In this document: positions 6,360 to 64,000 of the stretch, one piece after another | Layout of the letters: every line of letters begins with the position of its first letter | Numbering within the stretch: the stretch's first letter is position 1 | Assembly (NCBI GenBank): GCA_902728285.1 | Contig: CACVBU010000351.1 | Coordinates: forward strand, 682,001-746,000 | Source of the DNA: Clytia hemisphaerica | Taxonomy: Eukaryota; Cnidaria; Hydrozoa; Leptothecata; Clytiidae | Length of the DNA: 64,000 bases | Direction: 5' to 3' | Notes under the pieces: generated by a model | The model's input: only the letters and a program-made list of their open reading frames with translations | What the model was told of the DNA's origin: nothing | Databases searched by the model: none | Program-made: the position numbers and the translations under genes

Positions 6360-7367
6360 TTATTGATTTTTCAACGATTTCAACAAGAACACAAGATCAT
6401 TCGCAAAATGTGATTGGTCAATATCTTTATAAGATGGAAACTGGTTAATGTCAATCAATGCGTAATTATTAGTCTCTCGCTCAACCAAAATATCAAATCC
6501 GTATAAATAAAGACCCGAAATATTATGCATGCGAGTTATAATTTCTTCAATAATTTCGGAATCAAGTAAATCCGATTTTTCATCCGAAGTCATCCAGCAT
6601 CTTTGATTCGGGTTAACTCCGTGTAACTCTTCATGGAATTGTTGACCCGTTTTGGAGACTTGAAACGAATTAAACACGATATTTGAGTTCGTTCGTAACT
6701 CGCTCATTTTCTCGTTCAAATTTTGAATGGAAGGACGTTCGCAAATATGATAGCGTGTGCCGATAACAAAAACTTTATAACACTTTCCACTGTGATTACA
6801 AAACTCTTGAATTAAACAAGGTTTCTTTATCTTTTTCAGTCCATCCATATTGAACACAAGACTCATCAAATGAGCGCCATTATCAAAATAAGCCGAGTAC
6901 GGTTTCACGACAACCGGGAATTGAAAATATCGTTCGTTCATCTCCGCCTTGATATTCGTGAACGAGTATTTCTCGGCAACATCCAAAGTTTTCGGTAAAA
7001 ACACATTGATATCTTTCAAAGTAAAAGTACATTTCCGTATCAAATCAATCATCAGTTTTCGATTGGTTAAGCGCCAACAAAACTCTAGATTATCCACGAC
7101 GATAATTTCAGGGTGATTCTTTGTGTATTCCACAAAATCGTCAATCTTTTGTTCAGCTTTCTCGACACCAACCTCTTTATCGTTATAATGATCCAAAATT
7201 TTATGCAAAATAAAATCAAAAGGTCCTTGAGCTTCAATACATTTTTCTACATCGATATTAACAACTTTTATGTTCGCTTTCTTGCAAGCTTCCAAGATTC
7301 GATCGGGTAGATTCATCCGTGTGGCTTTTCCTTTCGGGACACATAAGCCCAATCTCAAAGGCAACAT
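6360..7367 (-). CDS. Inositol-tetrakisphosphate 1-kinase (ITPK1)-like, intronless, copy 1
   Basis: The 335-residue uninterrupted frame belongs to the inositol 1,3,4-trisphosphate 5/6-kinase family. These cytosolic ATP-grasp enzymes phosphorylate inositol phosphates on the route to InsP5 and InsP6. Visible signatures: QGPFDFILHK near residue 48 in the N-terminal inositol-phosphate-binding half; FPVVVKP and the ATP-grasp strand PCLIQEF in the middle; YKVFVIG; ICERPSIQNL; and the metal-binding motif ALIDINQFPSY near the C terminus, equivalent to VIDINAFPGY in animal ITPK1. Length fits the catalytic core. The start is the first methionine of the family-like frame (MLPLRLGLCVP), directly after an AT-rich leader. 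AATAAA (6359-6364) overlaps the stop codon TAA (6360-6362), so the 3' UTR may be extremely short. The lack of introns contrasts with the spliced neighbours and suggests a retrocopy origin or an intronless lineage. The copy at 62837-63832 is the paralogue. Confidence 0.9.
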   Translation of the reverse strand: MLPLRLGLCVPKGKATRMNLPDRILEACKKANIKVVNIDVEKCIEAQGPFDFILHKILDHYNDKEVGVEKAEQKIDDFVEYTKNHPEIIVVDNLEFCWRLTNRKLMIDLIRKCTFTLKDINVFLPKTLDVAEKYSFTNIKAEMNERYFQFPVVVKPYSAYFDNGAHLMSLVFNMDGLKKIKKPCLIQEFCNHSGKCYKVFVIGTRYHICERPSIQNLNEKMSELRTNSNIVFNSFQVSKTGQQFHEELHGVNPNQRCWMTSDEKSDLLDSEIIEEIITRMHNISGLYLYGFDILVERETNNYALIDINQFPSYKDIDQSHFANDLVFLLKSLKNQ

Positions 7368-7447
7368 TTTATGCTTGATTTTTTTTCGTTTTTATTTTCT
7401 CTTTTTTTCTATAGAATAAAAGAAACGGTTGATTAGTCAGTTTGGAA

Positions 7448-8058
7448 GAACGAACGAACGAACGAACGAACGAACGAACGAACGAACGAACGAACGAACG
7501 AACGAACGAACGAACGAAACGAACGAAGAACGAAACGAACGAACGAACGAACGAACGAACGAACGAACGAACGAACGAACGAACGAACGAACGAACGAAA
7601 CGAACGAACGAACGAACGAACGAACGAACGAACGAACGAACGAACGAACGAACGAACGAACGAACGAACGAACGACGACGAACGAACGAACGAAACGAAC
7701 GACGAACGACGACGAACGAACGAACGAACGAACGAACGAACGAACGAACGAACGAACGAACGAACGAACGAACGAACGAACGAACGAACGAACGAACGAA
7801 CGAACGAACGAACGAACGAAAACGAACGAACGAACGAACGACGAACGAACAACGAACGAACGAACGAACGAACGAACGAACGAACGAACGAACGAACGAA
7901 CGAACGAACGAACGAACGAACGAACGACGAACGAACGAACGAACGAACGAACGAACGAACGAACGAACGAACGAACGAACGAACGACGAACGAACGAACG
8001 AACGAACGAACGAACGAACGAACGAACGAACGAACGAACGAACGAACGAACGAACGAA
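7448..8058. repeat. (AACG)n tetranucleotide microsatellite, about 610 bp
   Basis: Near-continuous AACG/CGTT repeats, interrupted by occasional one-base slips such as AACGAAACG, CGACGAACG and GAACAACG. The array lies 81 bp upstream of the ITPK1-like start at 7367, in the presumed promoter or 5' UTR. Because the unit has no stop codon in any frame, it makes long spurious frames encoding RTNE or SFVR repeats. These are not genes. The unit carries a CpG. Confidence 0.97.
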
Positions 8059-23851: not shown

Positions 23852-24077
23852 AATATATTTACCGGGACGATCGTAAAAATATATACATGTTCGTAAGAGC
23901 ATATAAAATGTACATTTGCTCTAGTTTTATGGTAATAAATGTATCTAGAATCAACAGATGATCGGGGTACCTAAACCTGCTGCCAATAAGCAAAGGGCAC
24001 TAAATTCACTCGAAAGATGTTCACAATTTGAGCACTGTTTCATTAATTAAATCTTTTTCTTTGCAGTAAAACATAAC

Positions 24078-25254
24078 ATGAGCACACCAAATGGTATTGT
24101 CAAACAAAATGCTGAATATTGGATCAAATTGAATCTTGCTTTAGAAATCCATCTGAAAGCTGTGTTATTTGAACTCCTTTTCAACAAACATGGAAATTCA
24201 ATTTATGTTGGACTACCCACAAATCAAGATCTCCTTCAACAATATCTTATACAATTTCGTAGAACAAAAGAATCTTATTTGAAGGATTTTATTGATTGGG
24301 ATATTTTGTGCCCTAAAGAGGGTTTTACGAACCTTGAACAATGGAATATAGCCCTTGTTATTGATGTTATTATTCATATTTTGTCAATTCCTACTCCATT
24401 AGAAGGATGGGATCAACAAAAGCCTTTGCCTGATGACGATTCTTTATCTGGTATGGTCCTTTGGTCTCGTTGGATACATGAGAAAATCAAAGTGTTGAAA
24501 GTTGAAGAAGCAGGAGATCATTATCATGATATGCTCACAACTTTGAGATACATTTTAAAGACCTTGAACTATAGTGATCTTCAGAAATTCGACGAAAGTA
24601 TCCAAAATGATTTGAAAAGTCAATCAATTGACATGGTGAAACTTTTCCATGGTCAGGAAAGAACTGAACCTTCAGCCAGTCCTTGCAAAGTTGATTTTGT
24701 ACAAAAATTTGAAATTTGTTCGGAGATTCTAGAACTGACTGTTTGTAATGGTCTTTCTTCAACCAGTCCATTTTTGACAAATGGGTCGATTTCTCCTACA
24801 CAATCAGCCTCTGAACACAAGAAACAACCTATAGAATCATCAGAGGAACCATCAAACACAAATACAAGTGAAAATTCACCGAATATGTTAGTAAACCATA
24901 GTGAACCACAACCCTCATCGTCAAAACAACCTACAGAGAGCACTGATGATTTCAATTTTAATAACACTTCTTCAATTGACAGTAAACCACTAAACCGTTC
25001 ACCACTAAGCAACCCAGAGCCTCAAACTACAGCACAGTCAATCACAACAAAACCAAATAATGAACGCACTAGGGTTCCACCTCCAGTTGCAACAAAACCA
25101 AAACGTAGAACTTCACAGCAAAACCAGGAGCGCAAGTTGTCGAATGTTGTATCTTCACAACAAGTGGACAATCAAACACATGATTCCAGTGATCGGAGAA
25201 TGTCAAATGGTTTGCTTGGACAGCATCGAAGTGAAACAGAATTTGACCTTAAAG
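24078..25254 (+). CDS. NLR gene exon 1: HEPN-like domain and low-complexity linker
   Basis: It encodes residues 1-392 plus one base. Family-like stretches are EQWNIALVIDVIIHILSIP, followed by the PxxGW-type element LEGWDQQKPLPDDDSLSG, as in DZIP3-type HEPN domains (a leucine-rich helix, then P..GW, then D.S). The usual HEPN R-N-x4-H catalytic signature is not visible where expected; the segment reads SRWIHEKIKVLK. The domain is therefore probably a binding or oligomerisation module rather than an RNase. The rest is disordered, rich in Ser, Thr, Asn and Gln, with a basic patch PVATKPKRRTS. The exon ends CTTAAAG|GTTTGT. Confidence 0.75.
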
Positions 25255-28200
25255 GTTTGTTCACTTCTGTAATAATCATTCTCTGGAAGGCTCACTAATC
25301 ATGTCAAAAGATTAAAATTTTAGCAGCTGATTTTCTTAAATTTTTTCTTTATCCTTTCATCCTATCTTCATTTTCATTTTATAGCAATATATTTCGCAGG
25401 TCTATTGACCTCTATGAAACATTATTATAGAGAATTACAGTTCAGGCACAAGAGCCTCCAAACCGTTCTTATACAAAAAATCCTTTTAAAATATAGTTTT
25501 TCACGAGGGCTTCCTGTTACCCTCCATTTAAAACCGTCATTCGATCTGGCTTTATTCACCTCGTCTGCTCTCTTTTTCCACTCTTTGATTTGTTCCCTCT
25601 CCATTTTTGATTTTGATATTGATGAAATTGTTTATTGGTTTATTGGTTTGAATTTATTACTAAAATATTTAACAGATAATAAAAATACAATCAGTCATTT
25701 CTTTATACAAATAGAAATCGACCTTATTTTTTATTACTGTTTTAACACCTTTGCTTTTAAGGTACCATTTTGGATGAAGTGTACCAGATAATTGCAGACA
25801 TGTTAACACGAGGTGAATGGGAAAGTATGTTGAACACATTACAACTTTCATTCAAAGAGAAATTCAATATCTTCTTATCCAGTCGATCAATAGACGTCTT
25901 CAAAAGGAGGCATTTATCATGGTTTGATATTCGGAATCGATTGTTACAATTAGATAGAAGTGACGTCATCAAAGCAATCAAAACAAAAACATACATTACC
26001 GAAGGTTAGCATTTTGTTTTCTTGTATTTTCAATTTGTGTTATATTTGTTAGATATGTAGAATGTATATATGCACGTATCCCCTCTGAGATCTTTTGATA
26101 TAGGGGCTGCGTATCGTGTATAAAATTCTCGTCCGAGAGCTAAGGCCGGCGCAAATGAATCCAACATTCAATCCAACATTTCCAATTCATTGTTGGACGA
26201 AATGTTGGACGAAAAGTCACGTGGAAAAATTCGAAAAGTTGCATGAAAAGTCATTTGGGCAAAATGTCAAACATTTTCATCCAACATGATTACGCAAATG
26301 CATCCATCCAACATTGAAACCAACATAAAAGTGACGTCAATCTCGTTAAAAAGTGTTGGGTGAAAAGTTTGACGGCGATCAAACTTCATCCAACATGATT
26401 TCCAACAATTTTCTTAAAAAGTTGCAATTTAATGACTTTCGCAAACGAACCCAACATTTGATCCAACAATAATGTTGGATCAAATGTTGGATTCATTTGC
26501 GCCGGCCTTTACCCCCGTCTTTGTGTTTTTAAGTTTTTAAAAACTTGACTAGCTTGATTAGTAAGTTTTATATGAGAGATCTTTAAATTTCATTAAACTT
26601 TAAATAGTGCAGTCTAAGTGTGCCAAAAGTCATGAACATTGTGCACAAAGGCGTACAAGCACGAGACTTTGCACAAGTGTAGTTTAGGGGTCAAAAATGG
26701 ATTTGAATCTTAGACCCACACAATTGGCACCTGTTTGTGTATTTTACAGACTAAAACAGGTTCCCAAGCTAAAATGGGTTTTTTTTTCTCCAAAGTATGT
26801 CATGTTACATACCGTTGGAATGCATTTTTCATGCTCGTTTAGAAAAACATTACGATATCTGGATATCTGAAAATGAAGCCAAAAAAAGATATTGCGGAAC
26901 GTTGTTTGAAAAATGGCATAATTGCTGACGTCAGCAAAAACTCCAGGAACATGTTACCCAAAAATTATGGTGACTCTCGGACGGGAAATCATAAATAATA
27001 CGCATCCCCTATACCATGTTAATTCTGGGGAAGCACGCAGCCTATTAGATATCATGTGTTTAGATTTTGTCAAAAAATACAAAATAAAAACTCAACAGGG
27101 GTATAGATTATCAGTATTTTAAGATATCAAAAGGAGGATTTTCAGGGAATATCAGATTCTGCCATTAAATTAACTCCCCAATCTCCGTCATTTGCCAAAT
27201 TGACAGCCAAATTCTGCAATCAAAAATTCCTTTGTAGTTTTTTGTGAAAAATACCAGAAATTTAGTACCAGTTCCAGAATTTTTTCTATTTCTAAATTTT
27301 TTCTATTTCTAAATTCTGCAATAGCGTCTAAATTAAAAATTGTTAAAATGTTTTTTTCAAGTTCTTTGTGTCTCACCTAGTTTTAGCAAAGTTTCCTTTA
27401 TCGCGTCTGTTCTAAACCCAAACGATTCTTATTGATTATATCACACTTTTTCACTTCCTTTTTTATAGAGTTTCAGTCAATACTAGAGTTCTATTCATGA
27501 TTTGCACCACTGCAATGACTTCACGAAATTATGCAACTTTACTGTTTTTATTCCACCCAATACGTCACTTTTTCTATTGTTTAAGTGACGTATTAGCTGG
27601 AAAATTTTCAAAGTTCTCAGAAGACTCTCCAGTGCTGCATATATCATGAATTTTTACGGACAAAAAGAGCCCAATTTTCGTCTCCAACCACCTAAATTCA
27701 ACCTAAGTTCTTTGTGTCTCGCCTGGTTTTAGCAAATTTTCTTGTAATAAACATTCTTAGTGATTGATTATATCACACTTTTTCACTTCTTTTTTTATAG
27801 AGTTTCAGTCAACATTAGAGTACCACAAGGAGACGTTACGACAAAACCATATGACCAAAAGATTCGTCAAACCTTTCTTGGGAGCTTCAGGTGAAAAAGA
27901 ATTAGATGACCAGAACCTCGAGGATGCTTTCGTTGAACTAGCAATCATCAAGGGGAAAAATGTCGACGAAAAATTTCTCAATTCTAATCGTGATTATCAT
28001 TTACAGCAAGTTCTACTGGACAAGCAGATGATATCTTTGGATCAACTTATTACCAAGGATGAACGATTTGTGATGATCAGTGGTATCCCAGGAATTGGGA
28101 AATCAACCTTAGTCAAGAAAGTGATTCTAGATTGGGATAAAAGACTATTGTTATCTGGTAAAGGGCCATCGCCTAACATTCAGATTCTATTTCCGATTCT

Positions 28201-30466
28201 ATGTCGAGAATTAAACACAATAGATTTTACTGAAACTTCATCTCATCCGTTAGACATATTGGAAAGATTGTTTCCAGATTTTTTACCACACTGGAGATTG
28301 ATTAAAGACGTGAGTGAGCATGTTTTATTTCTTGTTGACGGTATCGATGAGCTTAAGGGGATTGAACATATTCAGATAGCTTCCAAACGATCGCCAGCCG
28401 TGAATCTCCTGTATCATTTAATGAATCCACAGTTCCTTCTCAACCATAAATGTATATTTGTTGGTCGTCCAAGAACCATCCGTATGGTCAACTCTTTCTT
28501 CAATCTAACCTTCCAATATGAAGTCAAGAAAGTGGAAGTATGTGGATTTAGCAGAGAAAATGTCAAGAACTACGTTCTAAAGCAATTCAAAGAATGTCCA
28601 CAAACAGGACATGATATTCTTCTTAAAATTCAATCATCTCCGATCACAGACGGTTTATCAAGAATCCCCTTCCATGCTTGGGTGTTGACCAGTATCTTCA
28701 AAGATAATCCGTTCATGAAGATACCAAAAACAGCTACTGAATTATTGCTGTACAGTTTCCTAGTCTACATCCGTCGACAGCGAGAGAAAGATATCGAACT
28801 ACAATCTGAAGCTGGTGGAATCAATCTCAAAACGCTTGCCAACGATCAATCAATCCAACAGTACATTCTCTCCATCGCGCATTATTCATTCCAAACTTTG
28901 AAGCACAGTGAAATCGTATTCGAAGCTGGTCCCACCGAATCCTTCTTAGAGATTGAGAAAATTGGATTATTGGTCAAATCAACAAGACGTGAAACAGGAG
29001 TCGTTCTCTACCAGTTTCAGCATCTCATTTTCCAGGAACTCTTCGCCGCTATCCATATTCTCCGAATGAGAGAAAACGCAGATCCTAAAACCCTCAATTG
29101 TTCTATCCTACAATCCTGTCTGACCATCGTTGCTGGCTTGGAAGGGATTCTCTCAACACAGGAAGAGCCGAATCAGATATTACAAGGACTGCTTGCACAG
29201 TTAACTAATTGTGATGCCGAAGCATCAAATGACCATCATGATACACAGATCCTTAGTCTCTTACAAGCTAATTGGATGAGTCATTGGATAAACCAACCAC
29301 CTTCTAGAATTGATATTGACATCAGTGATCTTTTCATCGAAGCATTCTTTGAAAGCCAATGCACCACATTCCCACTACGCATCACTATACCAACCAACAT
29401 TGTGGTCAACTTCACGAAAGAGTCCGATGCTTCACCGCTGACTAAGTATCCATTATACCGATTCTACAATCTACTGGCAATTTTCCTTTATCAATACCAA
29501 GACATCATTGTCCAGTTCTTTCCATTGTTTAGTTTCGCTTGTGGAATTAAAAAGATTGAAAAAATGATATCTCGCACCCAGTCTCTGTACGTCAATACTA
29601 AACATCTCGTCCAAGAAGAAATAATCCACATCTTAACCTACATTTTCGATCAGTTATACAAACTAGAACATTTTAAATCACTGATTATTAATTTCGAATT
29701 TTCGAACCTTGATCGTTTTATTCTTGATTGCATTGCTTCAATTTTCCGTTTCAAAAATTTGGAATCACTTCATCTATGTTGTCTGGATATCACCGAGAAG
29801 CCCCGATTACGTTGGTCCAAGAACCTAGCACTCCTTCAACAAAGTATAAAGCAAAACACCTCTCTCAAGAAACTGACCTTATTCAAGTGTGCTTTAACAG
29901 ATGAAATTATTCTCGATTTGATTCGAGATTTCAGATCATTAACACATCTCGATATTTCGTATAATGGTTTATCACAGATCACTTTGAATCGAATCTTGGT
30001 GAAATTAGATCCTGATTTAACAGTCCAAGTCATCAACTTCAGTTGTAATCATTTCAACCAACAATCTACTAAAGAATTCAAACTAGTTCAACCGGATGTT
30101 GAAGGCAAGTTTCCTACAGTGGAGATCCTAGACATAACTCAATGCCAAATGGACTTGAACTCCACACTAGAGACTGAAATACTTCAAAACATAATCAAGA
30201 TAGTTCGGCACCTTCGAGTTGATAGGTTTACATCGCTGCACCCTTTTCTTGATGTTCTCGGTAAAATGCCCGATTCAGATCGAAAGTTATTGAGCATTTA
30301 CATATCGGGTTTGAACGAGGAAGATGAACAATTTATCGATCATTTTCATAATATTCGAGAAAAATTCGATCGGTTCGATATTCAAATCGAAATACTCGAT
30401 AATCACCCTGTTCGATTTTTGGAACTGCCCGATTGGTTTGAAATGAGATTGAATGCCAATGAATGA
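24078..30466 (+). CDS. NLR-type immune receptor: HEPN(DZIP3-like)-Death-NACHT-LRR, three exons
   Basis: The exons 24078-25254, 25762-26004 and 27801-30466 join in matching phase (1 and 1) into 1361 residues. Domains in order: an alpha-helical N-terminal region (about 12-165) resembling the DZIP3-type HEPN domain; a Ser/Thr/Pro/Gln-rich linker (about 200-390); a Death-fold domain (about 394-473); a NACHT ATPase (from about 560) with Walker A GIPGIGKST at 568-576 and Walker B LFLVDGIDEL at 649-658; winged-helix/NACHT-associated helices; and LRR-like segments (about 1115-1235, for example LTHLDISYNGL). By family knowledge such proteins sense microbial or danger signals in the cytosol and oligomerise to recruit Death-domain adaptors. 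The start is the first ATG (ACATAACATGAG) after an acceptor TTTCTTTGCAG at 24065, implying a 5' UTR intron. Donors GTTTGT and GTTAGC are weak, so exon 2 may be alternatively spliced. No transmembrane segment or signal peptide is seen. Confidence 0.85.
25762..26004 (+). CDS. NLR gene exon 2: Death-fold domain
   Basis: Exactly one domain per exon: 81 codons, phase 1 at both ends, between the acceptor TTGCTTTTAAG and the donor GTTAGC. The pattern EVYQIIADML-x3-EWESMLNTLQLS, a middle RHLSWFDI and a final LDRSDVIKAIK fit a Death domain (six helices, with the conserved W in helix 2 and L/R-D-V near the end). The phase-symmetric exon can be skipped without breaking the frame. Between exons 1 and 2, a CAG acceptor at 25399 opens another phase-compatible frame (MKHYYRELQFRHKSLQ) that could be an optional cassette exon, but its donor is weak. 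Confidence 0.75.
26144..26509. mobile_element. Foldback element in NLR intron 2
   Basis: The left end AAGGCCGGCGCAAATGAATC and the following CCAACATT are mirrored by GGATTCATTTGCGCCGGCCT at the right. The interior is packed with CCAACATT/AATGTTGG motifs in both orientations (CCAACA, TGTTGGA). About 366 bp, non-coding. The right flank of the element (TTACCCCC) gives no clear target duplication. Confidence 0.75.
27368..27830 (+). repeat. Duplicated intron-end/exon-start segment before the NACHT exon
   Basis: A segment of roughly 120 bp (27368-27490: TTCTTTGTGTCTC, TAGTTTTAGCAAA, GATTATATCACACTTTTTCA, TTTTTTATAG|AGTTTCAGTCAA) recurs at about 27708-27830. The second copy is the real acceptor and start of exon 3. 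The first copy keeps the acceptor and the first codons (GAG TTT CAG TCA), then runs into a different sequence. Confidence 0.8.
27801..30466 (+). CDS. NLR gene exon 3: NACHT and LRR-like region
   Basis: A single large exon of 888 codons after the acceptor TTTTTTTATAG. It starts EFQSTLEYHKETLRQN, a short helical lead into NACHT. P-loop, Walker B with the DGIDEL acid pair, a sensor-like FVGRPRT segment and FQHLIFQELFAA (typical of the end of the NACHT-associated helical region) are all present and intact. The C-terminal third has degenerate leucine-rich repeats and a tail without a recognised domain. A large NACHT-LRR exon preceded by small Death-fold exons is the usual organisation of invertebrate NLR genes. 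No obvious AATAAA follows the stop closely. Confidence 0.9.
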
Positions 30467-30630: not shown

Positions 30631-30954
30631 CATTAAAGGAAGAAATTTTGGCGGAAGTTTAACTTGGCGGATGGCCGAAAAAGTTTTTTCAGAGGGAAGT
30701 TAATTTGCTGGTTAACTTGAAAAATTAAATTTGGCGGGAATTCAACTTGGCGGATGAAGGACGTTTTGGTCCAAAAAACGCCATTATAAGCCTGAAATAG
30801 CACACATTTGGGGGAATACATAGAGCAATTTAAATTTGGCGAGAATTTAATTTGACGGATGATGGAAAAAATTAAATTTGGCGGGAACTTAATTTGGCGG
30901 ATTTTGTCCAAATCCGCCAAATTTTCTTCCCGCCAAAATTTCTTCCTTTTAATG
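30631..30954. mobile_element. Intact TTGGCGG-type MITE
   Basis: The ends CATTAAAGGAAGAAATTTTG and the complement AAAATTTCTTCCTTTTAATG are flanked by TA. The interior repeats AATTTGGCGG(G/A) many times. It lies about 165 bp beyond the NLR stop codon and may fall in its 3' UTR. The halves at 13452-13541 and 17631-17880 belong to the same family. Confidence 0.8.
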
Positions 30955-37400: not shown

Positions 37401-40400
37401 TGTGTGCACTAAATTTCAATATTTTTAAGAGAGAAAGATGCATTTAAAAGATGTTATAAGGTCAAACTCGACTTTGAATATTTGTTTGCTGAATACAAGA
37501 TCCTTGAGACTGCATACCATTGATATTCAGAAAGATAAGTTTTTGTACAAAAATGATCTGCTTTGTTTGACTGAAACACAAATGAGTTATGAGAATTCTG
37601 ACGAAGATACCCAAAATATAAGAGAACAGCTCTCAAATTATATTCTTAGTCACAATATTGATCAGCATAAGTTCAACAGCATTACAGTTTGTCATCCTCC
37701 CCTTTTTTTTCTTGACATAACTGAATATGATCATTCTTCATGTTTTTCTCTTGTAAAATTTAGAAAAAAGGAGTTTTCTGACAAGGAATTTTCTGTTTTA
37801 GTTCTTTACAATAGCTCAAAAATTCACCGGGAGGTTTTTGCTTATACTCTTGCTCAATTTATTGAAAGACACGTTATTGATATCATTTTAGGTGACTTCA
37901 ACACGGATGGATTTGAATTGGACAAACGTGAACAATTACTGGTTGAAGTTTTGTCGAATTACACTTTGATGACACGCTTCCCGACACACGTGGATGGGAA
38001 AATGCTGGATCATGTATGGGTACAAAAGGAGTTGTCAATCCATTATGATATTCAAGTGATACGAAAATGTGTGAATTTGTCGGACCATGATGCTGTGAAG
38101 ATATCTTTATCGAAAAAATAATTTGTAAGAATGCCAGGCGAGAACACTGCTGGTTAGAATACCCGCCAGAGAGAACACTGCTGGTAAGAATACCCGCCAG
38201 AGGCAAGGCCCGGCGGGGATTTGGGGGGTTTAGTGTAGGGGGATTTAGTGTAGGAGTGGGATGACCTTATTAACTACTCTGTGCTTAATTTTAGAGGAAG
38301 CTGATAAGCTAACATAGTTCGAACTCCCCCCTTATTTTTCTAAATGGGGGGGGGTAGAGACCTTTCAAAATTTGCAAAAAGGGAGGGACAGTAAAAAAGG
38401 AAAAAGGGAGGGGTTGGATAGATGTTTTTAAATATTTTACCAACTAATTCAAAGGTTTTACAAGATTAGCAAGATATTCAAAAAGTATTTTTGAAAGTCC
38501 ACCACTTAATATGAACTTTTTTCTACCACACACAGGTTAGGAACTTTAAATTTAATTATTCACTGTCCTGTACTGTCTATTAAAAAAAAAACCCTTAGAA
38601 AAAAATTGCCCAAAGGCTGGTGGTAAGTAGGGGTATTTTTCAAAAAGGAAGATCTTCAATGAGGGAGGGGTACAGACCCATCTGCGAACTATGAGCTATT
38701 AAGTAGATGCTTATAATAGAGGTAAGCTCTCTAAATATCGCAAAAATATGCGTCGAAGATATTTCATAAAGAAAGGGAAAAATTTTCAGATAGATAGGAA
38801 TACAAGAAGGAAATCTCATATATTTTGACAAATAATTAGATCCTTGCCAGTCTAACAAATTTCTTGGACCGATAATTTTCTGTTTCTAAGGTCAACAGGC
38901 AAAATTCTTAGATACTCGCGACACCCTTTTGAAAATAGAAAGTGTATAATGTATTAAATTTAGGCTACTCATGGACGGTGATTTAAAAGTCATTTTATTT
39001 ATAAAGAAGTAAAGGGACAAAAGCAATGCAAATTAAAAAAAAATTGGACTTGTGGGAGGGTTGGTGGAGGCTGAAAGATGCCTTTAAAGGATGTAAAATT
39101 TGATAACTTCCAGACTAAAATTAAGCACACTCGAGTATTATGATAAATTTAGTCTATTTTTGATCATTTCAAACATGTTGTTTTACCTTAAATATTCTTT
39201 TTTGACAAAAATTCTATCTATCAGGACCACATTTCACCAATAGCTTGTATTAAAGACGTAAGAGCTTGTAAAGAGGAAAGAAAATGTGAAAATGTTTTCT
39301 CTAAGGAATTTGAATTTCTACTTAAAGGTCATCCCTTCCGATCACGTTTTCTATTTACTTTTTGCTGATATCTTTTGTTTGCAATTGTTAATTATTTTGT
39401 TCATGATTTTTCTAGTTTTTTTTTTTTAAGTCATATAGTTTGTTTATATTTATTTTCTTGTTATGTTATTTATTATCTTATGTCAATGTTCGATTCCGTA
39501 CTATAAATACATCACCACCAAAATTAATTTAAACTCTCTAACATCAATATGAATTTATCTGGTACAGAACATTTGTGGGAATTGAAGCATTGTGCATCAA
39601 ACTTCCAGTCGATTACAACGTTACAATTACAGATGTACTTTGATGTTATTTACGATTACTACCATACAGTTACATACCATACTGATTTATACCCGATTTT
39701 AAAGAAAAGTCAAACAAAGCCACCAAAAGAAAGTGTCAGAAAATGGCTCTCTATTTGTATTCATCATTATCTCAACCTGCATTCATTCAAATATTTTTAA
39801 CCAACAATGGAATCGTCATTGGTAATATTAATTAAAACTCTTTCGTATAATCTGTATTCGTTGATTATCGACTCATGTCATTGATATTTATTTACTGTTT
39901 ACTGCTTCATCTACTTGGTTATCCTTCGACCGTTTATTTGATCTCGCAATGCATCCTTCTCTCTTGAAAATTATGATTGTCCTGATGATCTTGAAAGTTG
40001 ATGAAAAGACGTGTGCATATTACACTCATGGTCATAATAATTTGGCATTTACAATAAAGACATTGAAATATATTTTACAATAACTAAAGACAATTATTAT
40101 TTAAATTTTACTGGAAGCCGGGGAACCACCGGATGTGAAAAAAAGCCAAATTTGCAACTATTCTTTTAATTTTGTGCTAGTTTTTATTTTTTTGTTTACT
40201 GTATTGAAGATTAGTTACGAATATTTCATTTATAAAGTAGAAGAAAAACTATTATACTCCTATCCGAAAATGTCTCTAATCATCTTTTATTTGGGCTAAT
40301 TAAAATTTTCTTTTATAAATCTCAAGTTTCTAAAAAGTTATTTTGCTTTTTTTCTCAAAATTTTAGAACTACTAGGAGTAAAATAAATATTTTTCGAATT

Positions 40401-62836: not shown

Positions 62837-63832
62837 TCATTTTGCCATGATTCGAGCAGAGTCAATTTCTTTTAATTTGTCAAACAAGTCTTTAGCGAAA
62901 AGATCTAAAGCACCATTATAACTAGGCATATAATTCAGATCTATGATTCCGTAATTCCCAGTCTCTTGATCAATAATAATGTCCACACCGAAAAAATACA
63001 GACCAGAATATTTGACAATACGTCTCAACAGTTCACTTATAATTTGCTGATCCAAGACACACTGCGATTGGTCCTCAATATAAGTCCTGAATTTCTGGCG
63101 ATTCGGGTCAATGTCATGCAAATCTTTGTTATGGATATTAACTTTCGAGACGGTCATCGAATCAAAATAAACAGTCTGTTCACATCCGGCTTCAAGATTT
63201 TTGACGGACGGCCGCTCGCAGATGTAGTGCGACCGATCGGCATTGGCGATTTTGTATAATTTTGAACCATGGTTGATAAATTCTTGAATGACACATGGAC
63301 TCATGACGTCACCAATGGAATGCTCGGAAAAAATGATTGACATGTCATGTGCTTCGGCATCGAAACGTGTCAGTGGCGGTTTCGTGATCAACGGGAAAGA
63401 AAGCGAGTGTTTATTCACGATTGCCATCACGTTTTCTGAATCGGTTTTCTCGACAAATGCGAATCGGGGAACAAAAACCTCAACTCCGTTCAATGAAAAT
63501 TCACATTGTTTCAAAATCTCCATGCTGTGTAGACGGTCAGCCAACTCATAAGTCTTTTGTACAGAGTCTAATAAAACAAGTTTCGGATTAGCCTGTGCGT
63601 GCATCAATAATTTCTTCAATTTAGCTTCACCAACATCCTCACCCTGATTATACCATTCCAAAACTTTATGAATAATAACGTCAAAAGGACCTTGCTCATC
63701 CAAACTCTTATTCATATCAATCACAACAAATTCAATGGAATGATCGAGACAAAGTTCTTGTAAGGACTCTGGTAGCCGTAACTTTCGACGGGTTAATTCA
63801 ATGAAACAAACACCAACTCGTAACGGAATCAT
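62837..63832 (-). CDS. Inositol-tetrakisphosphate 1-kinase (ITPK1)-like, intronless, copy 2
   Basis: A 331-residue uninterrupted frame, paralogous to 6360-7367 along its whole length (start MIPLRVGVCF versus MLPLRLGLCV). Family motifs: QGPFDVIIHKV near residue 48; FPLITKPPLTRFDAEAHDMS, the central ATP-grasp/substrate loop; SPCVIQEFINHGSKLYKI, close to the animal ITPK1 CVVQNFINHNAVLYKV type; HYICERPSVKNL; and IIDLNYMPSYNG at the metal site, with Leu replacing the usual Ile (IDIN to IDLN) while Asp and Asn are kept. The reaction would be ATP-dependent phosphorylation of inositol tris/tetrakisphosphates in the cytosol. No introns. The frame and motifs are intact in both copies, which suggests that both are functional rather than one being a dead retrocopy. 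Confidence 0.9.
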   Translation of the reverse strand: MIPLRVGVCFIELTRRKLRLPESLQELCLDHSIEFVVIDMNKSLDEQGPFDVIIHKVLEWYNQGEDVGEAKLKKLLMHAQANPKLVLLDSVQKTYELADRLHSMEILKQCEFSLNGVEVFVPRFAFVEKTDSENVMAIVNKHSLSFPLITKPPLTRFDAEAHDMSIIFSEHSIGDVMSPCVIQEFINHGSKLYKIANADRSHYICERPSVKNLEAGCEQTVYFDSMTVSKVNIHNKDLHDIDPNRQKFRTYIEDQSQCVLDQQIISELLRRIVKYSGLYFFGVDIIIDQETGNYGIIDLNYMPSYNGALDLFAKDLFDKLKEIDSARIMAK

Positions 63833-64000
63833 TTTGTCTCGTAAATATAGTCTTCTCCGACGAAACTCGTCTTTTTTTCTCTTTTACGTATACTTCTGGT
63901 TACCTAAAACGATAAGAAAAGTTTTTGAGTTTCAGAGGATATGTATTGTGAGGCATCATTTTGGGATCTTATATTAGGGAACAAACTTTTGCAGTGCATG
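63833..64000. other. 5' flank of ITPK1-like copy 2
   Basis: AT-rich leader upstream of the start codon. No core promoter motif can be assigned, and the tetranucleotide array seen before copy 1 is absent. Confidence 0.35.

Follow-up and report, generated by a model that had tools for sequence, protein, structure and literature searches.

A NACHT receptor gene of Clytia hemisphaerica with a HEPN_DZIP3-like domain that has lost its R-N-x-x-x-H motif

The window analysed here is a stretch of 64,000 nucleotides from the hydrozoan Clytia hemisphaerica (assembly GCA_902728285.1, contig CACVBU010000351.1, positions 682,001 to 746,000 of the forward strand). It contains, at 24078-30466 on the plus strand, three exons that join in phase to encode a protein of 1361 residues with a HEPN_DZIP3-like domain, a probable death fold and a NACHT NTPase. 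We consider it probable that this is one intact animal NLR (nucleotide-binding, leucine-rich repeat receptor) gene, encoding a working receptor with a non-catalytic HEPN domain and a death-fold output. It is a copy of an already described layout which is common in the same genome, and its distinguishing trait is the loss of the RNA-cutting site of the HEPN domain.

Gene structure and the domains of exons 2 and 3

The coding exons at 24078-25254, 25762-26004 and 27801-30466 (1177, 243 and 2666 nt, respectively) have running remainders of 1, 1 and 0, and their 4086 nt correspond to 1361 amino acids and a TGA stop. Intron 1 (25255-25761) and intron 2 (26005-27800) both have GT-AG borders (AAAG/GTTTG and TTTTAAG/GTACC, GAAG/GTTAG and TTATAG/AGTTT). 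These lengths, remainders and borders confirmed the three phase-matched exons proposed in the initial annotation. Under the base composition, the chance of such open frames is 8e-13 for exon 1, 1.6e-3 for exon 2 and 6e-26 for exon 3; exons 1 and 3 are far above chance, and the open frame of exon 2 alone is weak evidence. Exon 2 is supported by its relatives: all 15 paralogous exons in alignment A2 share the phase at both ends, the AG acceptor and the AAG/GT donor each being in phase 1 (the exon ends were placed by eye, and the 15 include some nearly identical copies). The ATG at 24078 is closely preceded by a clean acceptor (AG at 24065-24066, as CAG), which makes a spliced 5' untranslated region likely; a short part of it would end at 24077. 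A possible poly(A) signal, ATTAAA, is present at 30632-30637, and is weak because seven such words also occur in the introns.

Exon 3 encodes the NACHT NTPase (28064-28594), a winged helix, a helical region and two LRR-like repeats before the stop. NACHT was the only Pfam domain named with confidence in the whole protein (7.4e-19), and Walker A (28082), Walker B (28325) and the histidine motif of the winged helix (FQHLIFQE, 29015-29038) are all intact. Judged from the sequence, the NACHT identity is certain, in agreement with the earlier claim of an intact NACHT ATPase. The closest solved chain was NLRP3 (E 1.6e-12); 5irl and 5irm, labelled 'uncharacterized protein' in the results table, were also matched, and we take these to be NOD2. 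The degenerate LRRs described before are reduced to two weak LRR-like repeats at 29858-29983, with matches to LRR_6 and LRR_4 (0.0023 and 0.0079 for exon 3, 0.0056 and 0.041 for the whole protein) under the curated cut-offs and a motif count of 2 (shuffle p=0.02). When exon 3 was compared to the genome, none of the 41 other match rows at E<=0.001 extended past residue 523 of 887; therefore, no kin in this genome was detected for the final ~360 residues, which include the LRR-like repeats. No Pfam LRR was found at E<=0.05 in eight paralogue NACHT exons (from seven three-part genes and locus L053), some of which stretches end at the locus edge, short of any later exons.

Exon 2 is symmetric (1-1) and encodes 81 amino acids. 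Its predicted model has six helices and resembles solved death-fold domains, and the exon belongs to the family of paralogous exons described above. The Death profile (PF00531) did not match exon 2, alone or in the whole protein, and matched one of the 16 members of the exon-2 family, at 0.017; the genome has 23 Death match rows, all of them on contigs other than that of the window. Model and exon family together make a death fold probable. Of the Death-fold domain that had been annotated on an exon of its own, the exon thus stands and the fold is probable, by model and exon family and not by the Death profile; of the two N-terminal domains named at that time, only HEPN has a profile match, a sub-threshold one. 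Recruitment of a Death-type adaptor by this receptor would be plausible.

The HEPN domain and its lost motif

The N-terminal domain (residues 1-190, 24078-24647) was not recognised in a Pfam scan of the whole 1361-residue protein, which yielded neither a HEPN nor a Death match at E<=5, and it is not among the 128 rows that match HEPN_DZIP3 in the genome at E<=1. When residues 1-200 were scanned separately, they matched HEPN_DZIP3 (PF18738) with E 0.0045 and 17.2 bits, under the curated cut-off of 27. However, PF18738 matched 18/18 aligned HEPN members, the window copy included, at E<=1 (best 1.6e-24), and the window domain scored 96 bits against a model built from the 17 paralogues without it. 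By sequence kinship the domain is secured as a relative of HEPN_DZIP3, sub-threshold on its own but placed through its paralogues, as the earlier description of a DZIP3-type HEPN-like region had it. The AlphaFold2 model of the domain has a pLDDT of 88; structure comparison of this model gave no clear solved relative. The domain is followed by a linker (residues 196-392, 24663-25253) that is indeed rich in Ser and Thr (43% Ser+Thr+Asn+Gln). The linkers of four paralogues (L045, L046, L050 and L055), in contrast, look heptad-repeat-like by eye.

The comparison covered 40 distinct HEPN copies. Most of them are top-scoring matches to the window's exon or come from the retrieved gene regions, and they do not form a random sample of the family; 39 of the 40 cover the motif site (C735 does not). 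R-N-x-x-x-H was kept in 38 of the 39, the window alone having lost it: H134, E135 and V139 replace R, N and H. In addition, the window departs at five columns that are invariant in the 17 relatives of alignment A1 (H35, D90, T92, A125 and F149), where it has F35, N90, A92, G125 and Y149. To judge by the motif, HEPN would be an RNase in most of the relatives, and the best reading of the window domain is that it is non-catalytic. HEPN domains without the motif have been read as probable non-catalytic binders of RNA or nucleic acid (PMC3710099).

The loss of the motif weakens the RNA-linked recognition that had been suggested for this receptor, of which non-catalytic RNA binding is still possible. 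The suggested ubiquitin linkage found no support, since the Pfam scan of the protein contained neither RING nor any other ubiquitin module at E<=5.

Frequency of the layout and history of the gene

The genome (417 Mb) contains at least 45 NACHT match rows. Of the 45 NACHT matches listed, 36, the window's own included, have a same-strand HEPN no more than 20 kb upstream. This count used 72 of the 128 HEPN rows plus the window row, which was entered by hand; by reading of the listing, the other rows are either on contigs for which no NACHT is listed or separated from the NACHT by over 20 kb. Eleven paralogues (on contigs C170, C300, C9, C883, C404, C339, C940, C346, C577, C791 and C49) consist of a HEPN exon, a death-fold exon and a NACHT exon in the same order and strand arrangement as in the window. 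The ten in which the motif site is covered (all but C339) keep R-N-x-x-x-H, unlike the window.

The search with exon 2 gave 14 match rows, one of which (L034, on C854, with two stops) was left out of alignment A2. Both HEPN and NACHT are in place for 11 of the 15 paralogues in A2; as to the other four, the search for a HEPN was negative for L032 and L033, L035 is 24 kb away from its closest NACHT match, and L038 is not followed by one. Eleven gene regions (L045-L055) were retrieved, and a relative of exon 2 was seen in 9 of these, in L046 only through the overlapping L041; none was seen in L053 or L054. HEPN with NACHT is the main layout among the listed NACHT matches of this genome, and the three-part layout is usual here. 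The layout had been called uncommon, which does not agree with these counts or with the same domain set in PMC9334734 and PMC3710099. The order of HEPN, death fold and NACHT within one gene, also proposed earlier, is supported by the exon phases and the paralogues.

In trees of 13 NACHT and 18 HEPN rows the window is on very long branches, its NACHT as a long lone branch. Its HEPN falls in a set of six rows (100/99) with L002, L013, L019, L027 and the NB-ARC-linked L022; the other set of twelve rows, mostly NACHT-linked HEPNs, does not contain the window. This placement may reflect long-branch effects. The nearest relatives of the window HEPN are the NB-ARC-linked one and HEPNs from tandem clusters for which no NACHT is listed, a nearness which could result from an early split or from a swapped-in domain.

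Several HEPN loci elsewhere in the genome are organised differently. In L022 (1-2088, minus strand) a single frame joins HEPN_DZIP3 to an NB-ARC ATPase, a second HEPN-STAND layout. On contigs C793 and C913 (L002-L018, except L010), HEPN exons are clustered in tandem, and none of the listed NACHT matches is on these contigs; short, repeated coiled-coil-like frames follow the HEPN exons in L002, L003, L008 and L013, and a Pfam Death match is located near one HEPN at C913:94899. On contigs C834, C335, C815 and C84, HEPN_DZIP3 matches occur as two separated halves or one half, in open frames of 727-1703 aa. Elsewhere in the window, inositol 1,3,4-trisphosphate 5/6-kinase is matched by two long open frames at 6360-7391 and 62837-63883 (both minus strand), which are ~17 and 32 kb away from the receptor gene. 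A GAAC tandem repeat (7448-8058, ~155 copies) has several frames open, and an Endonuclease/exonuclease/phosphatase match at 37429-38121 (plus strand) is perhaps a retroelement remnant.

Interpretation and comparison with known systems

We infer that the receptor would be autoinhibited at rest. A signal at the C-terminal helical and LRR part would free the NACHT ATPase, which would then oligomerise and cluster the death-fold domains, and a Death-type adaptor or caspase could join these. The non-catalytic HEPN would serve as a scaffold, a dimerisation module or an RNA-binding module.

A more specific version of this, which we regard as possible though clearly less probable, is that of an old receptor retained as a single copy, whose HEPN lost its RNase activity but was preserved as a scaffold or as a sensor binding RNA; the death fold would be the sole output, and a duplicated splice site would provide a short HEPN-death-fold regulator. 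If true, this would be a pseudo-nuclease NLR, distinct from the HEPN NLRs of RNase type in this genome. The splice site in question is in intron 2. The end of this intron, together with the start of exon 3 (original at 27705-27821), is partially duplicated 332 bases upstream, at 27359-27489 (plus strand), including the acceptor (38 nt, 97% identical). If spliced in phase to exon 2, the duplicate acceptor (AG at 27467-27468) would give ten residues and then a stop, so that a truncated form is possible. That the locus also yields this short protein as a decoy or inhibitor of the full-length receptors is nevertheless unlikely in our view; the duplicate may be inert or cause mRNA decay.

It is also unlikely that the gene is decaying or silent, with the loss of the HEPN motif as its first visible damage. 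The long branches, the sub-threshold HEPN and LRR scores and an insertion in intron 2 resembling a miniature inverted-repeat transposable element (26142-26509, plus strand, with 39-nt terminal inverted repeats, 95%) would fit decay. However, 1361 codons have stayed free of stops despite great divergence from all paralogues compared, and NACHT motifs and splice sites are intact. Slightly more doubtful still is an active HEPN, with HEPN domains pairing upon activation of the receptor and then cutting RNA. The family kinship is retained, and some motif-less HEPN proteins are described as effective toxins, with an alternative active site as one possibility (PMC3710099), but all three motif residues are replaced here, as are the polar H35, D90 and T92, invariant in 17 relatives. 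Finally, that exons 1 and 3 belong to two neighbouring genes, as the length of intron 2 (1.8 kb) and the presence of poly(A)-like words in each intron might suggest, is very improbable given the matching phase-1 sites and the constant order and strand in the 11 three-part paralogues.

HEPN-bearing NLRs of invertebrates are numerous, and the question is whether HEPN is a weapon or a mere scaffold. With a dead HEPN in one natural copy and the motif in dozens of others, the genome itself provides a comparison that would make this question directly testable.

Vertebrate NLRP3 and related NLRs resemble the window protein in NACHT and the winged-helix region by sequence. At the N-terminus they have a PYD or CARD, whereas the window protein has HEPN and a death fold. 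Many HEPN-NACHT proteins are described in anthozoans, corals included (PMC8260672, PMC10236652), and for animals Anantharaman et al. 2013 listed fusions of DZIP3-type HEPN to NACHT, DEATH and LRR (PMC3710099). The listings and excerpts covered by the literature searches did not describe any HEPN-dead NLR with this layout. An NLR-like protein of Aplysia californica (PMC9334734) combines NACHT, LRR, Death-like and DZIP3-like HEPN domains in one protein, its likeness to the window protein being one of described domain content. The NACHT proteins of the pearl oyster (PMC9646362) are likewise tripartite NLRs, more than 50 with a DZIP3-like HEPN and 19 with Death-NACHT-LRR, although the excerpt describes an N-terminal Death or HEPN and not both together. 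The Rx4-6H motif, which the window copy lacks, is kept in 194 of 202 oyster HEPN proteins, and its loss is therefore not unheard of.
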